From: Acidobacteriota bacterium
GTDB lineage: Bacteria; Acidobacteriota; Terriglobia; Acidiferrales; UBA7541
DNA: 64,000 bases
Direction of reading: 5' to 3'
Assembly: GCA_013289695.1 (NCBI GenBank)
Contig: JABCZK010000006.1
Location: forward strand, 1 to 64,000
A model generated the notes under the pieces. That model was not told where the DNA came from, searched no databases, and worked only from the letters and a program-made list of their open reading frames with translations. This document shows, piece after piece, positions 16,629 to 62,657 of this stretch (positions are counted from its first letter, which is position 1; every line of letters starts with the position of its first letter). The position numbers were made by a program, and so were the translations under genes.

Positions 16629-16837
16629 GGACCTACTCGTACACCTTGTGGGATTCTGCACTTTGTAGCGCTGGCCGCGCAAGCTATAAGTCGTCAAATG
16701 AAGTACTTGGGCGTACAGCTCCATAACATCGAATGTGCATCCGTCCTCTATTGACCTACGGCCGCGGATCTGCGATCTACGCCTCCGACGACGCAGTCCG
16801 AACGATCACAGAAGAATGCACGTTTGACTTGAGATGC

Positions 16838-16859
16838 ATCCCCGCTCGGGGATAGGAGG
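16838..16859 (+). promoter_or_regulatory. Hairpin abutting the ribosome-binding site of the di-haem cytochrome gene
   Basis: A perfect inverted repeat ATCCCCG/CGGGGAT (16838-16844 and 16847-16853) with a 2-base centre ends directly before AGGAGG at 16854-16859, which is four bases from the ATG at 16864. In RNA this stem would stack against the ribosome-binding sequence and could affect initiation; in DNA it could be an operator. It lies within the 235-base divergent gap 16629-16863. Confidence 0.5.
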
Positions 16860-16863
16860 CGCA

Positions 16864-41245: not shown

Positions 41246-42586
41246 CTACGGCTTCGCTGAAGATTGGAACGATTCCGGCGGATCGAGCGAGCACTGCTTC
41301 CAGAATGCGCTTTCGGAGATGACGCCGTCCGTTAGTTGCTTCAGACTGGCGAGCGTCGCGGCGATTTGTCCGCCGTCAGCCGAATCAAATACGAGCACCA
41401 CGCCTTCGACCGACGGAGCGGGCGATTTTAGTTCGCGGTACGTTTTTTCGAAGAGCGCTCTGGCAAACGCGAGTTTTTCCCTGGCGGTGGAAGTGGCCGC
41501 AGGAGACGTAGGCTCTAGCCAGATCACGCGAACTTTCTTGCTCGCCAGCGGCGCCCACTTACCGCCGAAAGTAGTCGTCTCGTCCTTGCTGATGTTGAAA
41601 AGCGTCGCAGCGGCGCTGTCCTTGAATTCCGCCGGCAAATCCAGCTGCGCGCGGCGAATCCAACCGCGAGACGAGCCGGAGATCTGGACGTGCACCCAGG
41701 CGCCCTCCAGTTCTAGGACCTGAAATTCGTCTTCCGCATCGGCGGAAAATAGAACCGGAGATCCCTCAGCGGGTTTGGAGAAGACGTGCGTGCCAGCCTT
41801 CTTCACGGTTGCGAGATCAGCTGGTCGCACCTGATTGTGAAGAATCTCTTCAAAGTTCTTAATATCGGCCGACAGTTCCTGGGTGCGTTTTTCGACCGCC
41901 GCCCGCTGCAGCTTCAAAGTTTCCAGGCTTTCGCTCGAAGAAGGAGGCGGCGCGACCGGCTCCGCCGCCGCGCGCGGAGCGCTCGAGAAGTCTCCGGCTA
42001 CGCCGCTCTTGTTTGACGACGATTCACCCAGTTCCGAAGCCGCGGGATCGAGCCGGGTTTGCGGGCGCAAGCCTCCGCTACTCACCGATGGTGCAGGAGC
42101 GGTGCTGGATTTCGGCGCAGGCGCTATCGCGGACGAGCCGGCGGGCTTTGGAACGGAACTGGGACCCAGGGCCTCCTGAATCTGGTCCAGGAAATCATTC
42201 TCGATGTGGCCGTTCGAGACGAGCACGTGATAACCGGAGCGCCCGGGCGTGGGATCGTTGTACCAAGCCGTGATTTTGGCACTGGCGCGGACGGTAGCGC
42301 CGCCTGCAGGCGTCGCCACCACCTGAAATGTGCACTCGTAATAGCCGCGCTCGAAGTGGTCAGTCGGCAGGTCACTCGCCTCAACAAAGCCGTCAACCGT
42401 GGGCAGACGCCCGCTGGAACTGGGGCGCAGATTGCGCACCACGCGCTCAACATCTGCAACAGGGCTGGTAAACGTACGTTCGTAGGGAACTGCAGGAACT
42501 GCCTGCGCAGAGATTTGTGCGGCCAGGAATGTTAATGCCAGCAACAAAGTTCCAAAATGGACCGCGGGCCGAAGGGTTTTCTTCAC
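41246..42586 (-). CDS. Exported protein with SH3-like domain
   Basis: 446 residues from a GTG at 42586 that overlaps the previous stop (GTGA); an upstream ATG at 42619 would lengthen the signal peptide but overlap more. The signal peptide (HFGTLLLALTFLAAQISAQA) predicts export. Residues about 35-140 form a beta-rich domain, then a Pro/Ser/Ala-rich disordered linker (about 140-230), a coiled coil (LETLKLQRAAVEKRTQELSADIKNFEEIL), a bacterial SH3-like domain (VHVQISGSSRGWIRRAQLDL) and a mixed C-terminal domain. Function unknown; SH3-like domains of this kind bind cell wall or protein ligands. Appears to be a diverged partner of the adjacent gene. Confidence 0.78.
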   Translation of the reverse strand: MKKTLRPAVHFGTLLLALTFLAAQISAQAVPAVPYERTFTSPVADVERVVRNLRPSSSGRLPTVDGFVEASDLPTDHFERGYYECTFQVVATPAGGATVRASAKITAWYNDPTPGRSGYHVLVSNGHIENDFLDQIQEALGPSSVPKPAGSSAIAPAPKSSTAPAPSVSSGGLRPQTRLDPAASELGESSSNKSGVAGDFSSAPRAAAEPVAPPPSSSESLETLKLQRAAVEKRTQELSADIKNFEEILHNQVRPADLATVKKAGTHVFSKPAEGSPVLFSADAEDEFQVLELEGAWVHVQISGSSRGWIRRAQLDLPAEFKDSAAATLFNISKDETTTFGGKWAPLASKKVRVIWLEPTSPAATSTAREKLAFARALFEKTYRELKSPAPSVEGVVLVFDSADGGQIAATLASLKQLTDGVISESAFWKQCSLDPPESFQSSAKP

Positions 42587-43554
42587 GGTATGGGTTCCAC
42601 CTGGTCGTGCCGCAGCCATCCGCGACGTCCGTCCACGGTTTCGACTCCGTACCAGTAGGGCGTGATGATCTCAATGAGCACGTCTGAATTCGCTGGCACG
42701 GACTGCAGCGTCGCGGCGTGCTGGAAGGGAGCTGATTTCAGGTTGGCCTGGGCTTTTACGCGCAATTCGGCCTGGTGCTGCAGCTCGTGCAGCCGCAATT
42801 CCAGGCTCTGCACGGAGCTTTCTGCGTCCTTTAGCCGCGCTGCTTCCGCATCGCGTTCCTTCACATTGGATTGCGCCGCAAGTTGAAGTTGCCGACGCTG
42901 CAGCAAATCCGCGGTCTGCCGTTCCTCGCGCTGGATGCGCACGATGTGGCTTTGGATCTCCGCGAACTCGCTGGTTTCGACGGTGGTGTCCGATGTATGG
43001 ATTCTCTTCGATCCGTCTTCCATGAATATCGCGTCAATCTGCACATGAGTGCGATTAGGGGCAACTCCCAATACGATGTAGCGGACGGTGATTGTTCCAA
43101 CGTCCGTGCTGTTCTTGAAGTGCTGCGGCGACAGGGCTTGTTTGCGCACCTTATAGAAGGCATGGCCAGGTCCGGTCCACGGCCCGTAGTACGCGGAGGA
43201 TGTCGCCGCTTCGGCTTCGGTCAATTCGTCTTCCCGGGCATAGACCTGCGTGCCGTGCAGGATTGTGTCTTGCGTTACTAATTCCACCGCTTTCATCACG
43301 TCCGCTTCGGAGGCCTTAAGGTCAATCGCGAAGCCTTCCGGCACGTCCGCTGATTTCTGGCCAGGGTTCGCAGCAGAGAACGCCTGCGCGGCCGCGCCAA
43401 AAACCAGCGCGACAGCGATAAGCGCGAAACCACAGCGAAATAGCCCGTAAATTGAGCGGGCCAGACCGCCGAGCCACCACGGGCTGATCAACTCTACCTT
43501 GGTTGCGTCCGCCAGCCGCACCGCCTCAAGTTTGTCCGCCAGCCTATGACCCAT
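42583..43554 (-). CDS. Membrane-anchored or exported protein with coiled coil and SH3-like domain
   Basis: 323 residues from the ATG at 43554, which follows a G-rich ribosome-binding stretch; a longer frame upstream is basic and not convincing. One hydrophobic segment (about 30-58, FRCGFALIAVALVFGAAAQAFSA) is preceded by about 30 polar residues, so it may be an internal signal anchor. A beta-rich domain (about 65-180) is followed by a coiled coil (about 190-260, LQRRQLQLAAQSNVKERDAEAARL) and a C-terminal SH3-like domain (YWYGVETVDGRRGWLRHDQ). The layout parallels that of the next gene, with which it overlaps by four bases, suggesting a duplicated pair acting together. Confidence 0.78.
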   Translation of the reverse strand: MGHRLADKLEAVRLADATKVELISPWWLGGLARSIYGLFRCGFALIAVALVFGAAAQAFSAANPGQKSADVPEGFAIDLKASEADVMKAVELVTQDTILHGTQVYAREDELTEAEAATSSAYYGPWTGPGHAFYKVRKQALSPQHFKNSTDVGTITVRYIVLGVAPNRTHVQIDAIFMEDGSKRIHTSDTTVETSEFAEIQSHIVRIQREERQTADLLQRRQLQLAAQSNVKERDAEAARLKDAESSVQSLELRLHELQHQAELRVKAQANLKSAPFQHAATLQSVPANSDVLIEIITPYWYGVETVDGRRGWLRHDQVEPIP

Positions 43555-43960
43555 CCATTTCCCCCCATTATTTGTGCGTTCGACGCGATGGCCGCGCGAA
43601 CACGGCCTCGGCAGACCTTTGAAGGTGCGCCGCAGTCGCCTGCGCCAGTGCACCGGAAGACCGAGCAGCGTACAGGGCAAAATACACTAAAAGGGAGGTG
43701 GAGAACAAATTGTTAAGTTTTGTTAATTTTTATCTTGCATTCTTAATTCGCCCGGAGTAATTTCCTGGGCGTTTGGCGTGTGCGCAGCGTTGCGGCACTC
43801 GCTAACGGGGGAAGCCCAGGTTCCTGGGATGCGCGCATACAATGATCAACTCGGCCTTCATTGCACCAGCTGGCTTGCCGCGCGAGTCGCTCCCGCTGCC
43901 GTACGCAGCACGGTTACCAGTCACATCGAAGCTATCCCGCCAATTGCAACAGGAGGGTGT
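43555..43960. promoter_or_regulatory. Divergent control region of the respiratory operon, with AT-rich direct repeat
   Basis: This 406-base gap has no convincing gene. An AT-rich island at about 43705-43747, unusual in this high-GC window, holds the direct repeat TTGTTAA at 43710-43716 and 43720-43726, one helical turn apart. Next to it is an imperfect inverted repeat CGCCCGG-AGTAATTT-CCTGGGCG (43748-43770). These lie about 190-250 bases before the Cyc2-like gene and are candidate operator or promoter elements. AGGAGG at 43951 is the ribosome-binding sequence of that gene. Confidence 0.4.
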
Positions 43961-45451
43961 ATGTCAACGAAGTTTCGCGAGGGTGCAAATCCCATGAATA
44001 CGAAATGGTCCCGGTGGAAGACGATTTGGACGTGCGCATTTCTACTGATAGCGATCGTGCTGTGCGATGCGCGCGCAGCAAGCGCCCTGCCCACGGGCAA
44101 GGTGATGGCGCTCCCGATGTTCGCGCGCAAGTATGGCCTGCCGTGTTCTGCGTGTCATACCGCGTGGCCCGAGCTGAATAACTTCGGGCAAGTGTTTCGC
44201 GACAACGGCTATCAGCTGATGAATGATCGCGACTCTCCGATTTGGCAGAATCCCTCCTACTTCCCGATCTCGTTCCGCATCACTCCAAGCTGGCATCGTG
44301 AAAGCACCACGAATCAGGCATTTGATTCGGTTCCTGGAAACGGAGATGGATTGGGGGTCGGCACCTTGACCCAAGCCGGATTTGACCTTTCCGGAATGGA
44401 CCTATGGTCGGGCGGAACACTCTACAAGAACATTTCATTCATCCTGCTTCCTTCATCCGATCCAACGGCAGTGTGGCACTTTGAGAGCGCCTTCATTCGC
44501 TTCGATAACCTGTGGCACTCTCCGTGGCTGAACGTGAAGTTCGGAAGGTTTGAACTCGACAATTTGATCTCTGAAAAGCGATTTCTCTTCCTGTCGGCTA
44601 ACGGCGGGCTCTACCAGATTTATCACTTCAATGTCCCGGGCAGTATCAACAACTTCGGCTACGGGGATAATCAGATTGGCGTTGAACTAGCAGGCCACTC
44701 GGCGAACAGCTATACCCGGTATTCCGTGTCGATGTTGAGCAGCAACGAAGGCGGCGTGAACTTTACGACCGACGTTGTGCCAGGGGGGAGCCCCTCCAAC
44801 CGGACGTACGACGTCAACTTGGCGTTCAGTCAGGCATTCAATGCTCCCGGGCCGCCAGGTGAAAGCGGTTTCGGTCTGGAGCGCGTCGGTGCGTTTGCCT
44901 ACATCGGCCAGCGTCCGACCAACTTCGAGACAGAACTCGGTACGCAGTTGGTGGGCATTAATAACAAGCCGTTCTATCGCATCGGCTTCGCCGGTGACTT
45001 GTCGTACAAAAACCTGGAACTCATGCCCTTGTTTATGTACGGGCACGATAATCCATATTTGGGTCAATTCGGCGTGCCTGCGGGTTCGACGCTCCCAGCA
45101 GGCGCACAAGCCCCGACTTTCTACGGTGGATTTCTGGAGGCGCACTACTACTTCAATCCGCAGAACGTAGCCCTGGCCCGCTTTGAACAGATCAATGTAG
45201 GGCAACAGGCGATCTCGCCGTCGGTTTCGGGCGTTTCGGGAAGCAATGGCAACATCACCGCGGTGTCGTTCGGATATCGCTGGTATCCAATCATGTTCAG
45301 CCGCGCGGGCGTAGCGCTGGACGGCGAATTCTCACGCGTAAGAACGATCGGACAGGAACCGGAAAGCGGCAATGGCAGCGGCTTCATCGGAAATCCGACC
45401 GCTGCAGTGTGGAGCAACAGCATTTATTTCGGAATAGATTTCGACTTTTAA
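43961..45451 (+). CDS. Cyc2-like outer-membrane porin fused to a mono-haem cytochrome c
   Basis: 496 residues from the ATG at 43961, with AGGAGG five bases before it. A signal peptide (IWTCAFLLIAIVLCDARAASA) precedes a single haem c motif CSACH (Cys62, Cys65, His66) embedded in PMFARKYGLP and, after it, TAWPELNNFGQVFRDNGY. This arrangement is the diagnostic N-terminus of Cyc2-like fused cytochrome-porins. The remaining 400 residues alternate polar and aromatic strands and end in Phe (YFGIDFDF), as expected for an outer-membrane beta-barrel. Cyc2 proteins accept electrons from outside the cell, classically from ferrous iron; many relatives have no known donor. It opens the operon that leads to a cytochrome oxidase. 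Confidence 0.82.
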   Translation: MSTKFREGANPMNTKWSRWKTIWTCAFLLIAIVLCDARAASALPTGKVMALPMFARKYGLPCSACHTAWPELNNFGQVFRDNGYQLMNDRDSPIWQNPSYFPISFRITPSWHRESTTNQAFDSVPGNGDGLGVGTLTQAGFDLSGMDLWSGGTLYKNISFILLPSSDPTAVWHFESAFIRFDNLWHSPWLNVKFGRFELDNLISEKRFLFLSANGGLYQIYHFNVPGSINNFGYGDNQIGVELAGHSANSYTRYSVSMLSSNEGGVNFTTDVVPGGSPSNRTYDVNLAFSQAFNAPGPPGESGFGLERVGAFAYIGQRPTNFETELGTQLVGINNKPFYRIGFAGDLSYKNLELMPLFMYGHDNPYLGQFGVPAGSTLPAGAQAPTFYGGFLEAHYYFNPQNVALARFEQINVGQQAISPSVSGVSGSNGNITAVSFGYRWYPIMFSRAGVALDGEFSRVRTIGQEPESGNGSGFIGNPTAAVWSNSIYFGIDFDF

Positions 45452-45465
45452 GGGAGAGACCAGCA

Positions 45466-46377
45466 ATGACACTCAAAAAATTCGCAGTGACATTTGCGCT
45501 GGGCTCCATCGCTCTGCTTACGGCCGGCGCGCGGGTTAGCACAGCGCAATCACACGTCAATTCACCCGATCCTTTGCTCGGCACACCCAGCGTGGCGACG
45601 GAGACGAGCCAAGTTAACGGTCTAACCGGTCATGCCGAAGAAGGGAAGCATCAGTACCGGCGCTTCTGCATCGGCTGCCACGGACCCGACGGCAACGGTC
45701 AGGGAATGAACGCGCAATGGATTGATCCCCAACCGCGAGATTTTACCGAGGCTACGTTCAAGTGCCGCTCGACGCCTACCGGTACGCTGCCCACGGACGA
45801 GGACCTCTTTAACGCCATCACCCGCGGCTTCGTCACCACCAACATGCCGTCCTGGCGGCCGCTGAATCCCCAGCAGCGTGCTGATTTGGTCGCCTTCATC
45901 AAGACCTGGTCACCACGTTGGGCCAAGGAAAAGCCTGGTGCTGTGCTAAACATCCCGCCGGAGACGGCCGTAACAATCGAAAGCATCCTGCACGGCCGGG
46001 AACTGTTCCAGAAGCTGGAATGCTGGAAGTGCCACGGTCCCGAAGGTCACGCAGACGGCCCGTCGGCGTCAACGCTGACGGACAGCAAGGGCAATCCCAT
46101 CAAGCCCTTTAATTTTTCCACGGGCGAGCGATTTATGTGCGGCGATAGCAACCGCGATCTGTATCGCATCTTCATGACCGGCCTCGATGGTTCGCCGATG
46201 CCTTCCTTCGCGGACGTGATCCAGCCGAACGACGCATGGGACTTGGTACATTTCCTGCGCACCCTGCAAGTGGCGCTCCCAAATAACCAGGAATTGACGC
46301 TCTGGCAAAGTTATAAAGCAGCTCACGGAAAGGATCTGAAGCCGATCGGTCCGGATTCCGCGGGCGGCGCACAGTAA
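45466..46377 (+). CDS. Exported di-haem cytochrome c
   Basis: 303 residues from the ATG at 45466, preceded by AGGGAGA. The signal peptide ends near VSTAQS. Two CxxCH motifs are present: CIGCH (68-72) and CWKCH (186-190), each in a class I cytochrome c domain with later Met ligands likely in TNMPSW and SPMPSF. The layout is of the cytochrome c4/Cyc1 kind, which carries electrons across the periplasm to a terminal oxidase. It starts 14 bases after the Cyc2-like gene and precedes the copper-protein and cox genes, so it is a natural intermediate between outer membrane and oxidase. Confidence 0.88.
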   Translation: MTLKKFAVTFALGSIALLTAGARVSTAQSHVNSPDPLLGTPSVATETSQVNGLTGHAEEGKHQYRRFCIGCHGPDGNGQGMNAQWIDPQPRDFTEATFKCRSTPTGTLPTDEDLFNAITRGFVTTNMPSWRPLNPQQRADLVAFIKTWSPRWAKEKPGAVLNIPPETAVTIESILHGRELFQKLECWKCHGPEGHADGPSASTLTDSKGNPIKPFNFSTGERFMCGDSNRDLYRIFMTGLDGSPMPSFADVIQPNDAWDLVHFLRTLQVALPNNQELTLWQSYKAAHGKDLKPIGPDSAGGAQ

Positions 46378-46405
46378 TTCCAGTTAAGAAGGAGGGACTG
46401 ATTCG

Positions 46406-47125
46406 ATGAGAATGAAATTTTTTGCAGCTTTGGGTTTTACCGTGGCGATGGGCAGCGCACTGATGGTTTTCGCAACGCCGCCACCGGCGGGCTCGGGGTC
46501 CATCACCGGCAAGGTGACGTACACCGGAACGCCGATGAAGATGAAACCGATTGATATGTCCAAGGAACCGTCCTGCGCCAAGCAGCATGCGACGCCAATA
46601 ACGACCGAGAACGTCGCGACCGGGCAGGGAAACACGCTGGAATGGGTGGTGGTTTACATTTCGGCCGGTGATGAAGGCACGACGACGCCCTCCCAGGGTG
46701 TCCGCTATGACCAGAAGGGCTGCCAGTATTTGCCCCACGTCCTGACGATGCTGGCCGGCCAGCAACTGCAGATTTATAACGACGATCAAACCTCCCACAA
46801 CATCCATCCTTTGGCCAAGGTGAACCAGGAATGGAACAAGTCGCAGCCTCCCGGTTCGCCTCCAATCGACACGAAGTGGGATAAGCCGGAATTCATCGCG
46901 GTGAAGTGCAATATCCATCCGTGGATGCACGGATACTTCGCGGTGTTGAAAACTTCTCACGTTTCGGTGACAGGAGAGGACGGCACTTTCGATATTAAGG
47001 GGCTTGCTCCCGGGAAATACACCGTAACCGCTTGGCAAGAGCAGTACGGCACGAAAACGCAGGACGTAACGGTTGGGGCCGGAGCCGCCACTGCGAATTT
47101 CGTTTTCACCGCCACACCGTATTGA
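46406..47125 (+). CDS. Exported cupredoxin-like protein with C-terminal carboxypeptidase-regulatory-like domain
   Basis: 239 residues. The signal peptide runs to about residue 24. Around residues 115-180 the sequence resembles a cupredoxin: His131 and His134 in SHNIHPLA, then Cys168, His171 and Met174 in KCNIHPWMHGY, the order His...Cys-x2-His-x2-Met of type 1 copper sites. The N-terminal SITGKVTYTG and the C-terminal GTFDIKGLAPGKYTVTAW are prealbumin/CNA-B-like strands. Its place between the di-haem cytochrome and coxB suggests an electron carrier or a copper donor for the CuA site. GGAGGGA before the ATG supports the start. Confidence 0.75.
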   Translation: MRMKFFAALGFTVAMGSALMVFATPPPAGSGSITGKVTYTGTPMKMKPIDMSKEPSCAKQHATPITTENVATGQGNTLEWVVVYISAGDEGTTTPSQGVRYDQKGCQYLPHVLTMLAGQQLQIYNDDQTSHNIHPLAKVNQEWNKSQPPGSPPIDTKWDKPEFIAVKCNIHPWMHGYFAVLKTSHVSVTGEDGTFDIKGLAPGKYTVTAWQEQYGTKTQDVTVGAGAATANFVFTATPY

Positions 47126-47151
47126 GCTAGAAGTGCCGGTGTTTCAGACAG

Positions 47152-47182
47152 CCGCACCCCTCGAATTAACGGAGGGGTGCGG
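47152..47182 (+). terminator. Strong hairpin inside the respiratory operon
   Basis: An 11-base perfect stem (CCGCACCCCTC at 47152-47162 and GAGGGGTGCGG at 47172-47182) with a 9-base loop lies between the cupredoxin-like gene and coxB. It is followed by ATATTCG, not a T run, so it may be a processing or partial attenuation element that sets cox expression relative to the upstream carriers. It might equally be a dispersed palindrome. Confidence 0.5.
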
Positions 47183-47233
47183 ATATTCGAAGACCCGTTG
47201 GTTTTGAGCACAGCGTAGCGAGGCGGATAAATT

Positions 47234-48034
47234 ATGGGCAAATTGTTTGCGGTGGCCGTAATAGTGATCACGCTCATTTCGGTGTCGTTCTTCGTGATGC
47301 ACACGTGGTGGATGCCGGTGGACATCTCCACGACCGGCCCGGCAATCGACCACCAGCTGGAAGAGACCATGACCGGCTCAGGGCTGCTATTTTTGGCAGG
47401 GCAGCTGGTTTTGGGTCTGTTCGTGTGGCAGGCCAGCAATAAGAACCCCGCGCGAAAGATTAAGATGTTTCCCGGTGGCGCCAGCCCTCTGGTCGCGGCG
47501 GCGATCATTCTGGTGGGCATCGAGATTTTGACGCTCACTTTCGTCGGCACGAAGGCTTGGGGCGCTGTCAATCTGGCGCCTGCCGCTGCGGATTCGCTGC
47601 ACATTGACGTGCAGGCTGAGCAGTTCGCATTTTATTTTCGCTACGCCGGCCCGGACGGCCAATTTGGCGGCCTCCATCCCGACAAGATTGACGACGGCAG
47701 CGGCAACTACTTCGGTTTGGATCCAGCGAACGATGTAGCGGCCCGCGACGATGTGGTGGTGGGTTCGCTGGTGATACCTGTGAATCGCCCAATCCTGCTC
47801 AGTCTGCATTCCAAGGACGTAGGGCACTCTTTCTATGTCCCGGAACTGCGAATCCAACAGGACTTTGTCCCCGGGATCGAAATTCCCGTGCACTTCACCG
47901 CCACGCAAACCGGAAAATTTGAAATCGTGTGCACGCAGCTGTGCGGACTGGGCCACTACAACATGAAAGCGTATCTACAAGTGATGTCGGAGCCGGATTA
48001 CGAGCAGTGGTTGAAGTCTCAAGAAGGGCAGTAA
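47234..48034 (+). CDS. coxB: Cytochrome c oxidase subunit II
   Basis: 266 residues. Two N-terminal membrane helices (about 5-25 and 85-108) are followed by a periplasmic cupredoxin domain with the binuclear CuA site: His198 (GHSFYVPELR), Cys233, Cys237 (CTQLC), His241 and Met244 (GHYNM). The residue between the cysteines that is usually Glu is Gln235 here. There is no cytochrome c fusion, so the soluble cytochrome or copper protein upstream must deliver electrons. It passes electrons from the periplasm to the haem/CuB centre of subunit I. First of six consecutive oxidase-related genes. Confidence 0.93.
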   Translation: MGKLFAVAVIVITLISVSFFVMHTWWMPVDISTTGPAIDHQLEETMTGSGLLFLAGQLVLGLFVWQASNKNPARKIKMFPGGASPLVAAAIILVGIEILTLTFVGTKAWGAVNLAPAAADSLHIDVQAEQFAFYFRYAGPDGQFGGLHPDKIDDGSGNYFGLDPANDVAARDDVVVGSLVIPVNRPILLSLHSKDVGHSFYVPELRIQQDFVPGIEIPVHFTATQTGKFEIVCTQLCGLGHYNMKAYLQVMSEPDYEQWLKSQEGQ

Positions 48035-48106
48035 GCCGGGTACACGGTTCATCTGTTCGCGCGCGTCTCGCGCGTGGAGTCAAGTTGCTCTCTTCGAGGT
48101 CCACAT

Positions 48107-49885
48107 ATGCATGAGACATCTGCATCGCACGCTGCGCACCAGCACACGGCGCCGACCAGCTTTATTCGCAAGCACGTCTTCAGTCTCGATCACAAAGTGA
48201 TCGGCAAGCAATACTACGGGCTGGCGCTGCTCGCTGTTTTTATCGGCATGGGCCTTTCCTGGCTCATGCGTCTGCACCTCGGCTGGCCAGCTTGGCCGAT
48301 TCCGCTGCTGGATAAGCTTTCAGCCGTCGGCGCGCCGAGTGGCGTAATGACTCCGGAGTATTACCTCTCGCTGATGACCATGCACGGAACGATCATGGTG
48401 TTTTTCGTGCTGACCAACGCTCCTTTCGCCGCGTTTGGAAATTACTTCCTGCCCATTCAAATCGGCGCGGAGGACATGGCCTTCCCACGATTTAACATGA
48501 TGTCGTTTTGGACCACGTTCATGGCCTTTCTGGTGATGATGGCCGCATTTTTCGTTACCGACGGGCCGCCGATTTCCGGATGGACGGCATACGCTCCGCT
48601 GAGCGCGGTAGGTGGCGACGCCGGCCCCGGTTTGAAGGTAGGCCAGACATTGTGGGCGATTTCGATTGCGATCTTTTGCATCGGGTCGCTGCTGGGTGCG
48701 CTGAACTTCATCGCAACGACGCTGGATTTGCGCACCAAGGGCATGTCGCTGGCGCGCATGCCGTATTGCTCGTGGGCCTGGTTCGTAACTTCAGTGATCG
48801 CGCTGCTGGCGTTCGCGGTTTTGCTGCCGGCTTGTATTCTCCTGATTTTGGATCGCACCGCGGGCACCAGTTTCTTTATTCCCGCGGGGCTGGTTCTCAG
48901 CGACAAGCTGCAGCCGCATTCCGGCGGTTCCCCGCTGTTGTGGCAGCACCTCTTCTGGTTCTTCGGCCATCCGGAGGTGTACATCGCGATTCTGCCCTCG
49001 ATCGGAATCGTCTGCCACATCCTGCCGGTTTTCGCGCGCAAACCTCTGCTGGGCCCGCGCGCCACCGTCGGTTGCATGATCGCCATCGGCTTCTTGAGCT
49101 ACATGGTCTGGGGCCATCACATGTTCGTTAGCGGAATGAATCCTTTCTCCGCCACGCTCTTTTCAGTGCCCACCCTGTTTATCACCGTTCCGGCGACGAT
49201 CCTGACTCTGCTGTTGCTTGGCTCGGTGTACGGGGCAAAGATGCGCTTCACTTCGGCTTCGCTCTTTTGCTTGGGCTTTATTTCCGTGTTCATCAGCGGC
49301 GGCATAAGCGGTTTCTTCCTGGCGCAGCCCTCGATTGACATTTATCTGCATGCCACCTATTTCGTCGTCGCGCACTTCCACTTTGTGATGGCGGTGGCCT
49401 CGCTCTTCGGAGTGTTCGCCGGAACGTATTTCTGGTTCCCAAAAATGACGGGACGCATGATGAACGAAGCCCTCGGAAAATTGCACTTCTGGCTTACGTT
49501 TATCGGCGTCTACGCGATATTCATGCCGATGCATTATCTGGGGCTGGCGGGCAACGTGCGCCGCTACTCCGCGTTTGTGGACGACTATCTGATCCCGCTG
49601 ATTCCCGTGCACAAATTCATTACGATTGCGGCCCTTCTGACTGGCGCCGCCCAGTTCATCTTCTTGTTCAACCTGATTTGGAGCCGCTTCAAGGGCCCCA
49701 TCGCCTCCGAGAATCCTTGGGAAGCGACTTCGCTGGAATGGTCAACCGCCACGCCACCACCGTTTGACAATTTTGGCGGGAAGCACATGGTGGTGTACAA
49801 CGGCCCGAACGAATACGGAGTCGAGAGCCGCGACGGCAAAGACTTCATCATGCAAACGTCGCCTGAAAAAGCTCCGGCGAGCTAA
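48107..49885 (+). CDS. coxA: Cytochrome c oxidase subunit I
   Basis: 592 residues from the ATG at 48107 (GAGG seven bases before); an earlier in-frame ATG is less likely. Twelve hydrophobic helices. Haem a and a3/CuB ligands are visible: His in LMTMHGTIMVFF, GHPEVYIAILPSIGI (CuB His and the Glu and Tyr of helix VI), the HH pair in VWGHHMF and HFHFVM near the C-terminal side. FGNYFLPIQIGAEDMAFPR carries the Asp of the D-channel. The set indicates an A-type proton-pumping haem-copper oxidase that reduces oxygen to water. Located right after coxB. Confidence 0.96.
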   Translation: MHETSASHAAHQHTAPTSFIRKHVFSLDHKVIGKQYYGLALLAVFIGMGLSWLMRLHLGWPAWPIPLLDKLSAVGAPSGVMTPEYYLSLMTMHGTIMVFFVLTNAPFAAFGNYFLPIQIGAEDMAFPRFNMMSFWTTFMAFLVMMAAFFVTDGPPISGWTAYAPLSAVGGDAGPGLKVGQTLWAISIAIFCIGSLLGALNFIATTLDLRTKGMSLARMPYCSWAWFVTSVIALLAFAVLLPACILLILDRTAGTSFFIPAGLVLSDKLQPHSGGSPLLWQHLFWFFGHPEVYIAILPSIGIVCHILPVFARKPLLGPRATVGCMIAIGFLSYMVWGHHMFVSGMNPFSATLFSVPTLFITVPATILTLLLLGSVYGAKMRFTSASLFCLGFISVFISGGISGFFLAQPSIDIYLHATYFVVAHFHFVMAVASLFGVFAGTYFWFPKMTGRMMNEALGKLHFWLTFIGVYAIFMPMHYLGLAGNVRRYSAFVDDYLIPLIPVHKFITIAALLTGAAQFIFLFNLIWSRFKGPIASENPWEATSLEWSTATPPPFDNFGGKHMVVYNGPNEYGVESRDGKDFIMQTSPEKAPAS

Positions 49886-49900
49886 CGAGAGCGAATTACA

Positions 49901-50587
49901 ATGGCCACTACAACACTGCCTCCGGGTGCCGAAATTACTCTTGACGATCACGGCTCCGGCAAACCGCCGGAGCGAACTCCTCGTCAGCGACAAGTGACGA
50001 TGCCGGGCTCGCAAGCCCAGAAGTCCGAGACCGGCATGTGGGTGGCGGTTTCGGCCATCGGAATGTCCTTCGCGGCGTTCACCAGCGCGATGATCGTCCG
50101 GCAGGATGCGTCCACGGATTGGCAGCGCTTTCAGTTGCCGCACGTGCTGTACCTCAATACTTTGATTCTGCTCGCGAGCAGCGTGACGCTCGAGTTGTCG
50201 CGCCAGCGCATCGCTGCCATGCCGGATGCTGCGCGGCACGCAGCGGGGTCCGCGAAGGCCTTGTTGGCCAACGGGATCTATTGGCTGTACCTTACCGCGG
50301 CTCTGGGGCTGATCTTCGTTCTCGGCCAGCTTTTGGCTTGGCGAAATCTGGCGGCGCAGGGATTGTTCCTCGCAACGAATCCCAGTTCTTCGTTCTTCTA
50401 TCTCTTCACGGCTTTACACGCCGTGCATTTGCTGGGTGGAATGGGCGGCTTGTTCTATGTGCTGCGGAAACTCGTGCGCAGCGGCGGTGCCGGCGAAACC
50501 AGCGGGCTGAGCGCATTTTCCATTTACTGGCACTTCATGGATTTGTTGTGGGTGTACCTGCTGTTGCTTCTCGCGATGCGCATGTAG
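49901..50587 (+). CDS. coxC: Cytochrome c oxidase subunit III
   Basis: 228 residues. A polar N-terminus of about 40 residues is followed by five hydrophobic helices with the subunit III blocks MWVAVSAIGMSFAAFTSAMIVR, FLFTALHAVHLLGG-type (FYLFTALHAVHLLGGMGG) and the C-terminal FSIYWHFMDLLWVYLLLLL. Subunit III stabilises subunit I and assists proton uptake. A second, different subunit III-like gene follows at once, which is unusual but known in some caa3 and ba3 clusters. Confidence 0.88.
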   Translation: MATTTLPPGAEITLDDHGSGKPPERTPRQRQVTMPGSQAQKSETGMWVAVSAIGMSFAAFTSAMIVRQDASTDWQRFQLPHVLYLNTLILLASSVTLELSRQRIAAMPDAARHAAGSAKALLANGIYWLYLTAALGLIFVLGQLLAWRNLAAQGLFLATNPSSSFFYLFTALHAVHLLGGMGGLFYVLRKLVRSGGAGETSGLSAFSIYWHFMDLLWVYLLLLLAMRM

Positions 50588-50608
50588 TTGGCAATGGGAG
50601 GAGGAGCT

Positions 50609-51241
50609 GTGAGCGAAACGGAAATCACATTAGATGCGGGGCACGCGGCGGCGCTGGAGCCCTCGCCTTATGCCCTTCAGTCGAAAAAACTGACGATGTG
50701 GCTGTTCATCATCTCAGACGCGATAACCTTTGGAGCGATCCTCTTCGGTTACGCCTACTTGCGAATCGGAACGCCGAACTGGTCCACTCCGTTTCACTTT
50801 TCGCCGAACATTGTCAATGGCTTGATCATGACGTTTGTGTTGCTCAGCAGCAGCTTGACAATGCTGGCTGCTGACGCTGCCGCGAAACAAGGACGCAAAT
50901 CGTCCTGCCTGAAATGGCTGGGAGCCACGGTCGTCCTGGGAATCGTGTTTGCGACGCTCCACCTTCGCGAATGGTCCCACATGTTCGAGGAGGGATGGAG
51001 CCTGTCCACGAATCCGCTGGGTGGATCGGTTCAGTTTGGTGCTACTTTTTTCAGCATCACCGGCCTGCATCTTATGCACGTTATTTCCGGAATCATCGCG
51101 CTGATTGTGATCGCCATCGGCTACAACACCGACTGGCTGGACGCCGGACACGTCGAAACCACCGGCCTCTACTGGCACTTTGTGGACTTGGTGTGGATGT
51201 TTGTGTTTCCGCTACTGTATCTGATGAACGTGGCCCGCTGA
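50609..51241 (+). CDS. Second cytochrome c oxidase subunit III-like protein
   Basis: 210 residues from a GTG at 50609 with GGAGGAG five bases before it; an ATG at 50594 lies inside this sequence and is rejected. Conserved subunit III blocks are MWLFIISDAITFGAILFGYAYLRI, GLHLMHVISGIIALIVI and GLYWHFVDLVWMFVFPLLYL, with five helices. Compared with the preceding gene it is shorter and closer to the canonical family. The two may form a split or heterodimeric subunit III. Confidence 0.88.
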   Translation: MSETEITLDAGHAAALEPSPYALQSKKLTMWLFIISDAITFGAILFGYAYLRIGTPNWSTPFHFSPNIVNGLIMTFVLLSSSLTMLAADAAAKQGRKSSCLKWLGATVVLGIVFATLHLREWSHMFEEGWSLSTNPLGGSVQFGATFFSITGLHLMHVISGIIALIVIAIGYNTDWLDAGHVETTGLYWHFVDLVWMFVFPLLYLMNVAR

Positions 51242-51274
51242 ATCGGGTCCGCTGAAAAACAGGGAGGCGCTGCC

Positions 51275-51583
51275 GTGATGGAGACGAATCACGAACCCGG
51301 TATGAAGGAATACATCGCCATCTGGGTCGGCTTGCTGTGCATCGTCGGCATCGAAGCTTTTCTCACGTCGATGAATTTGTCTACCCATGGACTGCTGGTC
51401 TCGCTGCTGGTGCTGGCCTTTATCGAGGCTGGAATCGGGCTGCTGTATTTCATGCATCTGAGATACGAGAAGCCGAATCTGTTCTGGTCGCTGGTGCCGG
51501 CGGTGATCTTTGTGCTATTCATGATGAATCACATCTGGCCCGATGCGTATCGCATGCTAAATTTACGCGTGCCGATCCAGTAG
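51275..51583 (+). CDS. coxD: Cytochrome c oxidase subunit IV (prokaryotic)
   Basis: 102 residues with three hydrophobic helices (YIAIWVGLLCIVGIEAFL, GLLVSLLVLAFIEAGIGLLYFMHL, LFWSLVPAVIFVLFMMNHIW), which match the small prokaryotic subunit IV. AGGGAGG lies seven bases before the GTG at 51275; an ATG at 51278 is an alternative. The role of this subunit is probably to stabilise the complex. Confidence 0.85.
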   Translation: MMETNHEPGMKEYIAIWVGLLCIVGIEAFLTSMNLSTHGLLVSLLVLAFIEAGIGLLYFMHLRYEKPNLFWSLVPAVIFVLFMMNHIWPDAYRMLNLRVPIQ

Positions 51584-51677
51584 TTCGCCGTTGCCGCCGC
51601 AACGCGTTGGCGCGGCGGTTCGAAGCGAAGTATCATTTGTAAGCGATGACGCGTTGATAGGGGGGAGCTTAATTGCC

Positions 51678-51932
51678 ATGAGCGGAACGAAACGGGGGAT
51701 CCCGGGTATCCTAAGGCGCGCGGCAGCTGCGTTGACAGTGATTGCTAGTCCCGCAACTCTCTACGCGCAGAGCTGCGCGATGTGTTACCAGAGCGCGGCT
51801 GCCTCCGGCCCGCGTTCGATCCACGCCCTGAAAGTCGGCATCTTGATTCTGATGTTTCCGCCTTTGCTGATCACCGCCGGAGTCATTTACCTGGCCTATA
51901 GCAAGCGCGACCAGTTCCACCGGAACTCGTAG
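51678..51932 (+). CDS. Small membrane protein with CxxC motif at the end of the cox operon
   Basis: 84 residues from the ATG at 51678, with a GGGGGGAG ribosome-binding stretch upstream. The N-terminus is a signal or membrane segment (AAAALTVIASPATLYAQ), followed by SCAMCYQSAAASGPRSIHALKVG and a second membrane segment (ILILMFPPLLITAGVIYLAY). The CAMC cysteines could bind copper or carry out thiol exchange, so a role in oxidase assembly is possible. I do not recognise a characterised family. Last gene of the operon. Confidence 0.75.
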   Translation: MSGTKRGIPGILRRAAAALTVIASPATLYAQSCAMCYQSAAASGPRSIHALKVGILILMFPPLLITAGVIYLAYSKRDQFHRNS

Positions 51933-52261: not shown

Positions 52262-52687
52262 CTACGGTTCTACGACTAATTTGCCTTTCATGCGGTCGTG
52301 GCCGAGTCCACATACCTTTGCGCATTTGAAATCGTACGTGCCTGATTCTTGAGCGGCGAAATCAAAGACCTGGTCCACGCCTTTTGTAACTTTCCCGTTC
52401 TCGCCAGGCTGATCAAATAGCAAACCCGGCTTACCCTTGTCCTTGGTACCTTCCGCGTAGACGCTTAGCTTTATTCCGTGTGTTTCATCTTCAGAATGCA
52501 CTTTCAATTCAACCCTCGTGCCTTGCTGGACGCGAATTTCATTGGGAGTAAATTCGTACTTCTTAGCCGATACTTCGATGATTTTCGGTGCCTGATTTTG
52601 GTTTGCGGGGCTTTGCGCAATAGCCACACATAGCGGCACCACCGCGAGGCCTACGGAAACGGTCACTGCAACGATCGCCTTGCGCAT
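52262..52687 (-). CDS. Exported stand-alone cupredoxin with CuA-like ligand motif
   Basis: 141 residues from the ATG at 52687, which has AGGAGG four bases before it. A signal peptide (IVAVTVSVGLAVVPLCVAIAQS) leads to a single cupredoxin domain starting KIIEVSAKKYEFTPNEI. The C-terminal motif CAKVCGLGHDRMKG has Cys-x3-Cys-x3-His-x2-Met, with an upstream His in DETHGIKL, the ligand set of the binuclear CuA centre of oxidase subunit II and not of a blue copper protein. It may be a periplasmic electron carrier for the oxidase encoded nearby in the opposite direction. Confidence 0.85.
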   Translation of the reverse strand: MRKAIVAVTVSVGLAVVPLCVAIAQSPANQNQAPKIIEVSAKKYEFTPNEIRVQQGTRVELKVHSEDETHGIKLSVYAEGTKDKGKPGLLFDQPGENGKVTKGVDQVFDFAAQESGTYDFKCAKVCGLGHDRMKGKLVVEP

Positions 52688-52722
52688 CTTTCCTCCTATA
52701 TTCGGCCTGCAATTATCTTGTT

Positions 52723-52739
52723 CGATTGAAATACAATCG
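52723..52739 (-). promoter_or_regulatory. Palindrome upstream of the cupredoxin gene
   Basis: CGATTG (52723-52728) and CAATCG (52734-52739) form a perfect 6-base inverted repeat with a 5-base AT spacer, 36-52 bases before the cupredoxin ATG. The position and form are those of an operator for a dimeric regulator. The rest of the 456-base divergent gap 52688-53143 contains no convincing gene or other signal. Confidence 0.4.
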
Positions 52740-53143
52740 GATGCGAGAGTAAATTCAGAGGTTGCCGTGAAGTGCGTTGGCAATGTCTCCGCAAGTCTCA
52801 GGCGAATGGCCCATGCCGCTGAATCCTCACGGATCTGAGTCTCTCTACCTCGCTCGGGAAGCCCAATTTGTGACGGGAGCGTCGCGAAACCCTCGGTATA
52901 CGCACGGTGCTACTTCTCGACCGGGCTGGTAAACTCGAGCGCGTTGGATCGCGTGCCCGCAGTGCGCGAGCGCGCCGCTGCGCAAGCGTATTGAGTGTTC
53001 AGCGAAGCCCAATGCATTATTCTCTGGAATTGGATGGATTGATGCAGCGCCCGTGTCGCATTGTCCCCGTCACCGGCCCTTTTCACGCGGCCAGTGCGGT
53101 GGGCCGCGCTCTTCGCTAATTCAAATTTGGAGGAGAACTGCCA

Positions 53144-56976: not shown

Positions 56977-58659
56977 TCAGACGCGCTCCCAATTAAATTT
57001 CACCGGCGCACCCGTACCGTAAATCTTCAGCGCGCCGCTTTCGCCGACGGCGTTCGGGCGAATGAAAATCCAATTCTGCCAGGCGGAAAGCCTGCCAAAA
57101 ATCCGCGTCTCCGTCGTTTCCGTTGCACCAAACCGCAGATTCGCTTCCAGCCCGGTGAGGGCGTCTGGCGAAAGCGCGATTCTGGATTCGATTGCCTGCC
57201 GCACTTCATCCTGCCAATCAAGATCGTCTGGCGCGGCGGTCACCAGGCCCAACTCCACGGCATTCTTCACTTGCAGCTCTCTCCCAACGTGTTCCCGTAG
57301 CGTTTCGATTCTCGTTGCGTCTCGGTAAAAGCGCGCCGCCAAGCGCGAAAGATGATTCACCATCGGCAGCGCCCCAAAATTCATTTCCGAGAGCATCATC
57401 GCGGCCCGCGCGTCGCCTTCCTGCGTGTCTAGCATGTAAACGCGATCCGCCGCGAGCGCCAGCTCCAGCAAAGTCCCGGCAAAACAGGATTGGGGTTCCA
57501 CCAGCGCATAGATCGAACGCGAGGAAACATCCAGCCGCGCAAAGGTGCGCCGCATCATGCCCAGCACTTCGCGCACAAACCAGTTTTCCTGATTAGTTAG
57601 GATGAAATTGTCGAACGCCAAAACCGCTTTCGGATTTCCGGCTGTTTTGACGATCCACAAACCAAGTTCGGCCTCGCTCGTGCGCAGGCCGAGAATGGCG
57701 TCGTCCAGTTCACGAGCCATTTGCAGCGGCCACCAGCGAGCGCCAGCAGCCAGCGCGCTTTCCAGCGTCGGCGCCACTGCGGATTCCGGCGCGCGCATGG
57801 TCAATGTCACGGCCCGCGATTCGCGATTCACCTGCGCGTCAACAAACTCGTAATGCCGTCCGGCGTCGTCGATACTTCTTTGCAACGGCGTGAGCGCCAC
57901 GCCCTGCGCGATCGCAGGGCGATCGCTTCGTTTCGCCAACTCGAATGCGCGCTGCTTCACATGCTCCGCGAATTGCTGCGTTTTCACCACTTCGTCCACC
58001 AAGCCCCAATCCTTCGCGCGCTGGCCCTTCACTCCATCCGCCGTGGTGCAAAAAATGTCCGCGTGGTCCCGCCGTACTTTGCGCTTGTCCGTCACGCGCG
58101 TAAGGCCGCCAGTCCCCGGCAGAACTCCCAGCAACGGAACTTCCGGCAAACTCACTGCAGAAGACCGATCGTCGACCAGAATAATTTCATCGCACGCGAG
58201 GGCCAGCTCGTATCCGCCTCCCGCGGTGGTTCCGTTCAACGCCGCCAGAAATGTCAACCCCGAATGCGCGCTGGAATCCTCAATGCCGTTGCGCGTCTCA
58301 TTCGTGAACTTGCAGAAATTCACTTTCCACGCGTGCGAGGAAAGGCCCAGCATATAAATGTTGGCTCCCGAGCAAAACACGCGGTTCTTCGCGCTGGTGA
58401 GCATCACGCAGTGAATTTCCGGATGCTCGAAACGGATTCTCTGCAGCACATCGTGCAGCTCGATGTCCACGCCCAGATCGTAGGAATTCAGTTTCAGTTT
58501 ATAACCAGGGCGCAAGCCGCCGTCCTCGTTCACGTCCATCGTCAGTGTCGCCACCGGCCCGTCATAGGCCACGCGCCAATGCTTGTAGTTCGCCGGCTCG
58601 GTCTGGTAATCCACCGGCGCAGCTTTAACTTGCGAATCTTGCGCTGCCGTCACGTCCAC
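56977..58659 (-). CDS. boxC: 2,3-epoxybenzoyl-CoA dihydrolase (benzoyl-CoA dihydrodiol lyase)
   Basis: 560 residues, starting at a GTG with AGGAGG five to six bases before it. The enoyl-CoA hydratase/isomerase (crotonase) fold shows in the N-terminal half as NRVFCSGANIYMLG and NGTTAGGGYELALACDEIILVDDRSSAVSLPEVPLLGVLPGTGGL, with a second crotonase-like half (YALVEPQSCFAGTLLELALAAD). BoxC opens and cleaves the epoxide ring with water, releasing formate and 3,4-dehydroadipyl-CoA semialdehyde. Length and two-part layout match known BoxC. Nine bases after boxR and 55 before boxB on the coding strand. Confidence 0.95.
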   Translation of the reverse strand: MDVTAAQDSQVKAAPVDYQTEPANYKHWRVAYDGPVATLTMDVNEDGGLRPGYKLKLNSYDLGVDIELHDVLQRIRFEHPEIHCVMLTSAKNRVFCSGANIYMLGLSSHAWKVNFCKFTNETRNGIEDSSAHSGLTFLAALNGTTAGGGYELALACDEIILVDDRSSAVSLPEVPLLGVLPGTGGLTRVTDKRKVRRDHADIFCTTADGVKGQRAKDWGLVDEVVKTQQFAEHVKQRAFELAKRSDRPAIAQGVALTPLQRSIDDAGRHYEFVDAQVNRESRAVTLTMRAPESAVAPTLESALAAGARWWPLQMARELDDAILGLRTSEAELGLWIVKTAGNPKAVLAFDNFILTNQENWFVREVLGMMRRTFARLDVSSRSIYALVEPQSCFAGTLLELALAADRVYMLDTQEGDARAAMMLSEMNFGALPMVNHLSRLAARFYRDATRIETLREHVGRELQVKNAVELGLVTAAPDDLDWQDEVRQAIESRIALSPDALTGLEANLRFGATETTETRIFGRLSAWQNWIFIRPNAVGESGALKIYGTGAPVKFNWERV

Positions 58660-58668
58660 GCGTCCCTC

Positions 58669-59574
58669 CTACCCGATTTCGGAGTGCAATGCCTGCTTGA
58701 GTTTCAGGAAACTTTGCTCCGCGGATTCGCCCGAGGTGTCCAGATGCAAATCCGCCTTGCGGTAAAAAGGCTCTCGCGCCTGCAGAATCCGGCGCAAGTC
58801 CTCCATCGCTTCATCGTTTTCGGCCATGGCGCGAAAATCGCCCTGCGCCATCACCCGCGCCATGTAGTCTTCCGGATTCGCTTTCACCCAAACCGTGAAG
58901 CAGCTCCCGAGAAGCCGGTCGTAGGTTTCTTTTTCGGAGACCACGCCTCCGCCGACGGAGAGCACGGCGCGCGGGTATTCGCGCAGGATGCGCTCCAGCA
59001 CTCGATGTTCGATTCTGCGGTACCCACTTTGCCCGTAAAGCGAAAAAATCTCCGACAAATCCATCCCGGCTTCTTGGGCGATCTCGCGGTCCAGTTCGAT
59101 GAACGGCGCCTTCACCGCTTGCGCCAGCCTCAGACCGAGAGTTGATTTCCCCGCGCCGCGCAGGCCGATCAACGCAATGCGCGAATGCCGGTCCTTCGGC
59201 GCTGCGCCGAATTCCTGCACGAGGCGCGCCACAACTGCACCGAGTTGCTGGGTGGGAAGACGATCCAGGAGTTTCTGTATCGAGCGCTTCGCTTCGGAAT
59301 CGGGGGCTTCTGCGGCAAACAGGTCGGGCAGCGAGACGTTCAGAGCGGTCGCGATGCGGCGGAGCAGCACGATCGAGACATTGCCGTCACCCAGCTCGAG
59401 CTGCGCCAAATGCCGCTCGGAGACGTCGGATTCTTGAGCCACCATTTTCCGCGTCATCCCCCGGCGGCTGCGCAGTTCGCGAACCCTCATGCCCAAAATA
59501 CGCAGGAAGTCTGCGTCGCTAGGATGCGCGGGCGGGGAAGGCAGTACGGCGCCGGATTGCATTTCTGTGGTCAT
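58669..59574 (-). CDS. boxR: BoxR/BzdR-type regulator: XRE helix-turn-helix fused to shikimate-kinase-like domain
   Basis: 301 residues. Residues about 25-85 are an XRE-type helix-turn-helix (VRELRSRRGMTRKMVAQESDVSERHLAQLE). Residues about 130-295 are like shikimate kinase, with Walker A GLRGAGKST, ELDREIAQEAGM, and SVGGGVV. The fusion is the signature of BzdR/BoxR, which represses benzoate genes and is released by benzoyl-CoA bound to the kinase-like domain. It is the first gene of the boxR-boxC-boxB operon, so it probably controls its own transcription. An ATG four codons later is an alternative start. Confidence 0.94.
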   Translation of the reverse strand: MTTEMQSGAVLPSPPAHPSDADFLRILGMRVRELRSRRGMTRKMVAQESDVSERHLAQLELGDGNVSIVLLRRIATALNVSLPDLFAAEAPDSEAKRSIQKLLDRLPTQQLGAVVARLVQEFGAAPKDRHSRIALIGLRGAGKSTLGLRLAQAVKAPFIELDREIAQEAGMDLSEIFSLYGQSGYRRIEHRVLERILREYPRAVLSVGGGVVSEKETYDRLLGSCFTVWVKANPEDYMARVMAQGDFRAMAENDEAMEDLRRILQAREPFYRKADLHLDTSGESAEQSFLKLKQALHSEIG

Positions 59575-60435: not shown

Positions 60436-60610
60436 GCCCTCTCAAGCATCCGCGCCCTCCCCTAGCCTCCGCCGCCTATCGCGCGCCCGTTCTCGAAAGT
60501 TTAGTCCTGCATCGCGCTCACGACTGCGGTATGCTCGTTCTCTATAAATCTAAAGCCGGTTAGAGCCGTATCTGCTCGTTTTGCCGGTGGTCAAATCCTC
60601 GGGGGAGCAG

Positions 60611-62554: not shown

Positions 62555-62657
62555 AGAGGGCGGCGCGTAAAGCGGCCACCAGTAAAGTGATATATTGCAC
62601 TGGAAATACGGTGCCTCGTGCACCGCTGACGCCACGCTGGGCAGGGATTTGGACCAC

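Follow-up and report, generated by a model that had tools for sequence, protein, structure and literature searches.

How might a bacterium of the Acidobacteriota draw electrons from a donor outside the cell and pass them to oxygen? The question is raised by nine open frames on the forward strand at positions 43961-51932 of a 64,000-nucleotide stretch (the window) of contig JABCZK010000006.1, assembly GCA_013289695.1. They encode, in order, a Cyc2-like porin-cytochrome, a di-haem cytochrome c, a cupredoxin-like protein, CoxB, CoxA, two CoxC proteins, CoxD and a small CxxC protein, as a sequence-only reading of this DNA had set out and as the open frames and Pfam matches confirm. The genome (4.5 Mb in 64 contigs, 87% complete; the window lies on its contig C6) carries five COX1 genes. 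We consider it likely that the operon takes up electrons for transfer to O2. That it forms a respiratory chain of its own, leading from a donor outside the cell (most probably Fe(II)) to O2, is a reading we favour with some reserve, and we put the chance that Fe(II) is the main donor at about even.

In the proposed chain, the haem of the Cyc2-like barrel would take electrons from a soluble extracellular donor, Fe(II) being the most likely, free or organically complexed. Two carriers, the di-haem cytochrome c and the cupredoxin, would bring the electrons across the periplasm to the CuA site of CoxB, and CoxA would then reduce O2. The sequences themselves provide the protein families, the conserved metal ligands, a predicted barrel, a recurrent gene order and an exchange of aa3 for cbb3 oxidase at two loci; the direction of the electrons, the donor and the cellular location of the parts we infer.

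A Cyc2-like porin-cytochrome heads the operon

Cyc2 proteins have been defined as porins of at least 365 aa that carry A.P.FAR[Q/K][T/Y], then CXXCH, then PXL (PMC8406198). The first protein of the operon was said to bear an N-terminal haem, CSACH, in a FAR context, and the full published motif, A.P.FAR[QK][TY]..C..CH...P.L, is indeed present as ALPMFARKYGLPCSACHTAWPEL at 44108, once in the six frames of the window. None of 200 single-base shuffles of the window contained it, and given this result a chance origin of the motif was rejected. The protein is 496 aa long with one CXXCH, and its ATG at 43961 is preceded by aggagg. With the Cyc2 family as described (PMC8406198, PMC7029218) it has in common the motif, CXXCH, PXL, a length above 365 aa and an N-terminal haem on a predicted porin barrel. 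It differs in that its motif takes the form FARKY.

Searches of Pfam and NCBIfam gave no match to this protein, and a PDB search with its profile likewise returned none. The AlphaFold model, built from 53 sequences, is a β-barrel (mean pLDDT 85.4, pTM 0.85) with the haem motif at its N-terminal end; confidence is low to middling for the segment that bears the haem, residues 1-20 scoring below 50 and the next ten 67. A barrel of about 16 strands with an N-terminal haem had been expected: the barrel and the position of the haem hold, while the number is not confirmed, as DSSP assigns 17 strands that are 8 or more residues long and some shorter ones besides. For Cyc2, 16 strands have been predicted (PMC8406198). 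The Foldseek matches listed are mostly porins (BpsOmp38, OprP, PorB, Omp32, OprO), with AlgE also among them, at TM-scores by query length of 0.37 to 0.54; OprP (2o4v, rank 2) and OprO (4rjw, rank 30) both score 0.54, and it is these two structures that Keffer et al. named for Cyc2 of Mariprofundus (PMC8406198). The sequence-only reading had left room for the protein to be no barrel at all; prediction returned a barrel, with porins among its structural matches.

When profiles were compared with hhalign, the window protein matched six proteins from proteobacterial plasmids at a probability of 98.1% and E 6.7e-14, in an alignment of 150 columns at the N-terminal end. An intermediate acidobacterial group (A4) bridges the window and proteobacterial proteins over most of their length, at E 4.3e-55 and then 3.7e-18. 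In a tree of 118 porin-cytochromes, built from 145 rows after removal of 27 that were near-identical, the window protein falls in an 82-row clade with support of 99, and both proteobacterial rows included lie outside that clade; the program warned of long branches meeting among the distant rows. Both this tree and that of CoxA below were made by a quick method without bootstrap. As a separate observation, two plasmid records, CP084173.1 (labelled Acidithiobacillus ferrooxidans) and NC_009469.1 (Acidiphilium), give the same Cyc2-like match scores, with the gene adjoining a small cytochrome and a transposase in each; either the gene is mobile or a record is mislabelled.

The gene order recurs across two phyla

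Relatives of the porin-cytochrome were found in 80 of 396 genomes sampled from the phylum at E 1e-8 and in 5 at E 1e-50, the window genome included. At E 1e-30, a relative is present in 36 of 95 genomes from the order to which the window belongs, every one of them in the window's own family, and in 7 of 200 genomes sampled around one Gemmatimonadetes genome. When named genomes were scanned, 281 of 326 candidates proved to be relatives. By record title, the best 80 of these 281 comprise 68 acidobacterial, 10 Gemmatimonad and 2 'Chloroflexi' entries, the last of which may be mis-binned; the acidobacterial titles include Candidatus Acidiferrales and Candidatus Acidiferrum typicum.

Gene order was tallied over 118 loci (L036-L038, L105-L139, L142-L221), of which 88 were distinct once 30 duplicates were dropped; L039, L040, L140, L141 and a distant group described below were kept apart from the tally. 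The counts depend on the tblastn thresholds used, E 1e-3 with identity above 35% for the cytochrome, cupredoxin and coxA, and no identity threshold for the upstream gene upA. Among distinct loci with room, the di-haem cytochrome gene lies at most 1.5 kb downstream of cyc2 in 83 of 85, the cupredoxin gene at most 3 kb downstream in 70 of 79 (and upstream in several others), and coxA at most 7.5 kb downstream in 57 of 71, in Acidobacteriota and Gemmatimonadota alike. The order noted in the window thus recurs in other acidobacteria, where the earlier reading had suggested looking for it.

Fourteen of the 71 loci lack coxA downstream. One of them, L115, from the window's genus, has COX1 and FixO genes of a cbb3-type oxidase after cyc2 and the cytochrome gene, and so does L039, which belongs to another family of the phylum and stands outside the 88-locus tally. 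The FixO proteins carry extra c-type haems, and a c-type part of each resembles the stand-alone di-haem cytochrome, at 46% and 43% identity. The oxidase therefore appears exchangeable while cyc2 and the cytochrome remain, and the resemblance of FixO ties the di-haem cytochrome to oxidases. None of the window's cox genes was found at the other 13 loci, seven of which had frames listed, some of these through duplicate loci; no family search for other oxidases was made there.

These counts bear on whether the porin-cytochrome might be a mere neighbour of an ordinary oxidase operon, with an unrelated role. Such a reading would suit the 14 loci lacking coxA, as well as the distant group, in which 0 of 35 loci have a coxA match and a cupredoxin-type protein lies nearby in about 21. 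We find it very improbable: coxA follows in 57 of 71 loci across two phyla, two different oxidase types stand behind the porin-cytochrome, and the first three genes of the window operon are only 14 and 28 bases apart. The sequence-only reading had also considered that the family might never be linked to an oxidase in other genomes; the 57 coxA loci and the two cbb3 loci show such links. A Fisher test of co-occurrence (6/1/1/33 genomes, p 1e-5) was set aside as evidence, the genes being physically linked. The distant group is an observation in its own right: loci L041-L075 (for example L057, 9432-11576) hold a second group of porin-cytochromes in the phylum, whose nearby protein is of the cupredoxin-CarboxypepD type, and which is possibly another electron-transfer system.

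The remaining gaps in the window operon are, from the cupredoxin-like gene onwards, 108, 72, 15, 0, 33 and 7 bases, if coxA starts at ATG 48107 and the last gene at 51591. For that gene, which encodes the CxxC protein, a start at ATG 51678 is the more likely and would widen its gap to 94 bases. We presume co-transcription; a scan for promoters and terminators gave matches no more frequent than in shuffles and was uninformative. The CxxC protein has no significant Pfam match, and a homologue is the last gene of the ordinary cox operon that this genome has on its contig C2 (L256 6716-6907, 47%). In seven Gemmatimonad-titled loci that run past coxD, tblastn found neither the CxxC gene nor the upstream genes upA and upB. 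Among the papers listed on Cyc2 in general, on Cyc2 with Acidobacteria, Gemmatimonad, soil, peat or palsa, and on Acidoferrum or Acidiferrum, preprints being outside the scope, none describes the operon in its title or at the beginning of its abstract.

The putative periplasmic carriers keep their metal ligands

Both proteins placed between the porin and the oxidase retain the residues expected to bind their cofactors, in alignments that include duplicates (116 rows for the cytochrome, 108 for the cupredoxin). In the di-haem cytochrome the first haem motif (C68, C71, H72) is kept in 113 of 116 rows and the second (C186, C189, H190) in all 116, with the axial methionines M127 and M245 in 115 and 114. 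Its best PDB match is 6h5l_B (E 5.5e-57).

The third protein had been called cupredoxin-like. Its ligand pattern bears this out, with H131 and C168 in 108 of 108 rows, H171 in 107 and M174 in 106, and so, weakly, does a blue copper protein matched in the PDB at E 0.14; Pfam does not, since it returned CarboxypepD_reg and related C-terminal families and no cupredoxin family. We therefore take the name from the ligands and the weak blue copper match.

The operon CoxA forms a clade without the K-channel lysine

The CuA cysteine, histidine and methionine ligands of CoxB are conserved in all 82 rows that reach the site, the other 3 of 85 rows ending earlier. The window CoxA bears the marks of A1 A-type oxidases: the glutamate of GHPEVY, the D-channel aspartate and asparagine, and the CuB and haem histidines. 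The names and roles of the D- and K-channel residues are established, and the K-channel lysine is normally held to be important for proton delivery. In the alignment to PDB sequences, on which the equivalence of channel residues rests, the lysine of VPTGIK faces a leucine in VPATIL of the window CoxA. The lysine is absent from all 71 operon CoxA frames (duplicates included), which have V, I, M, L or A instead, while the D-channel aspartate and asparagine and the GHPEVY glutamate are kept in all 71. The four other CoxA proteins of the window genome all retain the lysine.

The residue counts and the tree draw on CoxA frames that reach 380 aa and contain the histidine anchors. This leaves out L254 and frames that are cut or split, L122 and L134 for example; for the tree, near-identical frames were removed as well. 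Among its 85 distinct rows, 59 without the lysine (K-minus) lie on one side of a branch with support of 100 and 26 with it (K-plus) on the other. This 59-row clade is new here. Fifty-seven of its members, the window's included, share a contig with cyc2, and a further one (genome G460, L230) starts at a contig end. Around position 367, the Leu/Lys site, P356, T361 and L369 occur in 59 of 59 K-minus rows and in none of 23 sister rows; T365 (54 of 59) and, on the neighbouring helix, Y333 (53 of 59) are likewise missing from the sister rows. To judge from these residues, the helix around the K position is remodelled in the K-minus clade, and the operon copy of CoxA appears to have lost the lysine.

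Such a loss has precedent, as K-channel variants occur among archaeal A-type oxidases, with seven losses under one hypothesis of the paper that describes them (PMC8239418). If the operon oxidase is active, the protons of the reductive phase would use the D-channel or a shifted path. An alternative is that the system serves detoxification, Fe(II) being oxidised outside the cell to limit Fenton damage by an oxidase that is slow or pumps poorly. All 59 distinct sequences of the clade lack the lysine, as this would allow, and the same genome encodes a second CoxA from this lineage, K-plus and with 61-62% identity, so that ordinary respiration has its own enzyme. We nevertheless think detoxification improbable, because the D-channel and GHPEVY residues are kept throughout, as expected if proton uptake and pumping matter, and because a nine-gene chain with a multi-subunit oxidase would be costly for such a use. 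With a K-minus CoxA beside its K-plus sister, here in one genome, the purpose of the K-channel could be tested with natural enzymes, and if the K-minus oxidase works it is a natural test of whether the channel is dispensable with a high-potential electron donor.

Likeness to the rus operon lies in gene order

The rus operon, cyc2-cyc1-cup-coxBACD-rus, is found in Acidithiobacillus, Acidiferrobacter and Acidihalobacter (PMC10654088). The near-identity of order claimed for the window operon is borne out: the first seven functions follow in the same order, cyc2-cyc1-cup-coxBACD, with a porin-cytochrome first and an A-type oxidase of its own. The components differ. The rus operon encodes rusticyanin, and its Cyc1 belongs to the c4 type of di-haem cytochromes (PMC10654088), whereas the window cytochrome lacks a c4 match, none of its 22 PDB matches up to E 1 being named c4, and the rusticyanin family (TIGR03095) was found in 0 of 7 carrier genomes searched, including the 87% complete window genome, in a search whose control genomes gave one weak match and included no named bearer of rusticyanin. 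The window operon has two coxC genes. Iron oxidisers have been reported to combine a CoxA bearing two extra helices (the 2TM type) with type 0 CtaA (PMC8239418); in the window CoxA some 30 residues precede DHK and inspection by eye shows no extra helices, and no ctaA- or ctaB-like frame was recognised by eye downstream in the window. It also lacks the K-channel lysine, which we list as a difference although the corresponding residue of rus CoxA was not seen.

Lateral acquisition of a true rus operon from Acidithiobacillus-like bacteria would account for the shared order. We judge descent from that operon very unlikely on the second gene, the missing rusticyanin and the N-terminus of CoxA, to which can be added the grouping of CoxA with oxidases of its own class in a tree that contains no rus sequence. 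The likeness thus appears to be one of order, descent not being supported by the parts tested. Contig C2 of the same genome carries coxB-coxA-coxC-coxC-coxD-CxxC without cyc2, the CoxA being the K-plus sister described above, and in two sister cassettes (L262, L263) a cupredoxin gene stands ahead of coxB with no cyc2 in the stretch seen. The stretch of L262 ends 300 bases past the cupredoxin gene, and its genome has no cyc2 match at E 1e-30. From these cassettes, the operon looks like cyc2 and a di-haem cytochrome gene set before a copy of the class's cassette; it would then have arisen independently of the Acidithiobacillus rus operon, from the cup-coxBACCD-CxxC cassette already present in the lineage. 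That the paired coxC genes and the CxxC protein are special features of the operon was considered and rejected, as the contig C2 cassette has them too. Gemmatimonadota rows fall inside the acidobacterial operon clade in the CoxA tree and at the clade base in the porin-cytochrome tree. Only tentatively do we propose the combined reading that the operon oxidase works without the lysine and that the operon was built independently of Acidithiobacillus in Acidobacteriota and Gemmatimonadota.

Two other systems invite comparison. A published network traces Cyt572 of Leptospirillum to a cluster that also contains homologues from Acidobacteria and Nitrospira-type bacteria. Likened by description and not by sequence, the Leptospirillum system has a counterpart in the cbb3-linked variant among the operon's relatives, whereas most operon loci are of the aa3 type. 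The A1 caa3 oxidases of cultured Acidobacteria, encoded in the strains described in bc1 superoperons or as single extra homologues (PMC8407424), share the phylum and the A-type, and the passages on them mention no porin.

The donor and the case against the proposed chain

Several points weigh against the chain proposed here. The direct profile match to the proteobacterial proteins is confined mainly to the N-terminal third, and the strict motif is present in 2 of those six, none of which is an assayed Cyc2; the other four have FAAQT (twice), FNRQT (once) or, in one case, a stretch that as taken starts past the motif. Placement among Cyc2 draws on motif, profile and model, the trees having been built without the three Cyc2 proteins that are characterised. 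One Cyc2 cluster, Cluster 3, is functionally the most uncertain according to Keffer et al. (PMC8406198). The 14 loci without coxA belong here too, even with the cbb3 type in L115, as does the K-minus coxA of genome G463 (L232; 55% complete), which stands without cyc2 beside genes that we read as acetate kinase and phosphoketolase-like. The change in CoxA could reduce or abolish activity. Finally, the whole case is made from sequence and predicted structure.

The same wiring might serve a donor other than Fe(II), such as Mn(II), a phenolic, humic matter in reduced form or a surface that acts like an electrode. Keffer et al. allow that Cyc2 may hold additional functions (PMC8406198), which together with the uncertainty of Cluster 3 favours such a donor. 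So does habitat: palsa, bog or fen appears in 21 of the 80 record titles of the best 80 of 281 relatives, settings where reduced humics would be plausible donors. RuBisCO (PF00016), moreover, was not found in 26 of 28 cyc2 carriers. The model, which also matches Bacillus subtilis, hit two carriers, one of them weakly, and not the window genome; 16 of the 28 are rated at least 90% complete. On the other side, biochemical evidence of Fe(II) oxidation exists for three diverse Cyc2 representatives, and a mono-haem plug in a narrow pore fits a small soluble donor, as Keffer et al. argue (PMC8406198). We regard another donor as rather unlikely, and Fe(II) stays our first choice.

Since RuBisCO was found in few carriers, autotrophy on iron is unlikely for most; these would live as heterotrophs for which the extra donor is a further source of energy. 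One operon carrier (L267, G431:C52) has a strong match to the RuBisCO large subunit (7.4e-134). If the proposed chain is real, the uptake of iron or other extracellular electrons with a dedicated oxidase would reach beyond specialists of mine waters and iron mats, since many Acidobacteriota, some of which come from peat to judge by their titles, and some Gemmatimonadota encode it, mostly without detected RuBisCO. Electron uptake to oxygen would then be a common trait of peat and soil heterotrophs, and the nine-gene unit with its diagnostic CoxA change would offer a genetic handle for tracking it in metagenomes.

Coordinates, neighbouring genes and other loci

Table 1 Genes of the operon and its divergent neighbours, by position in the window
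Feature	Position	Strand	Basis
Cyc2-like mono-haem cytochrome fused to a porin, 496 aa; signal peptide, CSACH, predicted barrel	43961..45451	+	Open frame, motif, AlphaFold, Foldseek
Di-haem cytochrome c, 303 aa	45466..46377	+	Two stretches matching Pfam Cytochrom_C (1.3e-20); relative of PDB 6h5l chain B
Secreted cupredoxin-like protein, 239 aa, C-terminal CarboxypepD_reg domain	46406..47125	+	Pfam CarboxypepD_reg 1.7e-9
coxB, oxidase subunit II, CuA motif CTQLCGLGHYNM	47234..48034	+	Pfam COX2 4.5e-11; PDB oxidase subunits II
coxA, A-type subunit I	48107..49885	+	Pfam COX1 1.8e-129; alignment to PDB 6adq_F
coxC-like 1	49901..50587	+	Pfam COX3 7.7e-9
coxC 2	50588..51241	+	Pfam COX3 1e-16
coxD	51275..51583	+	Pfam COX4_pro 6e-9
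Small CxxC membrane protein (CAMCYQ)	51678..51932	+	Open frame from 51591; start at 51678 is our reading
upA, divergent; mixed alpha/beta domain, long helix, SH3-like C-terminus	42583..43680	-	AlphaFold pLDDT 89, pTM 0.64
upB, divergent; SH3_3 domain protein	41246..42619	-	Pfam SH3_3 2.7e-6, barely above cut-off

Of 76 distinct loci with room, 53 have upA upstream of cyc2 in divergent orientation, and upB adjoins it in the loci listed. The long helix of the upA model spans 72 residues, and Foldseek gave weak SH3 matches to the model, none below E 0.001. Downstream, convergent with the operon (52262-52783, reverse strand), lies a gene for a free-standing secreted cupredoxin with a CuA-like motif, CAKVCGLGHDRM; in the PDB this protein best matches the CuA domains of subunit II of oxidases.

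Elsewhere in the window, a 512 aa protein with two CXXCH motifs (16834-18369, forward strand) gives weak RoxA-like and MauG matches, both under curated cut-offs. At 56980-59574 (reverse strand) an enoyl-CoA hydratase-type protein adjoins a fusion of HTH and shikimate kinase domains, a pair reminiscent of BoxC and BoxR, and at 60581-63998 (forward strand) an FAD-type protein is followed by a lyase; both regions possibly hold genes of aromatic degradation.

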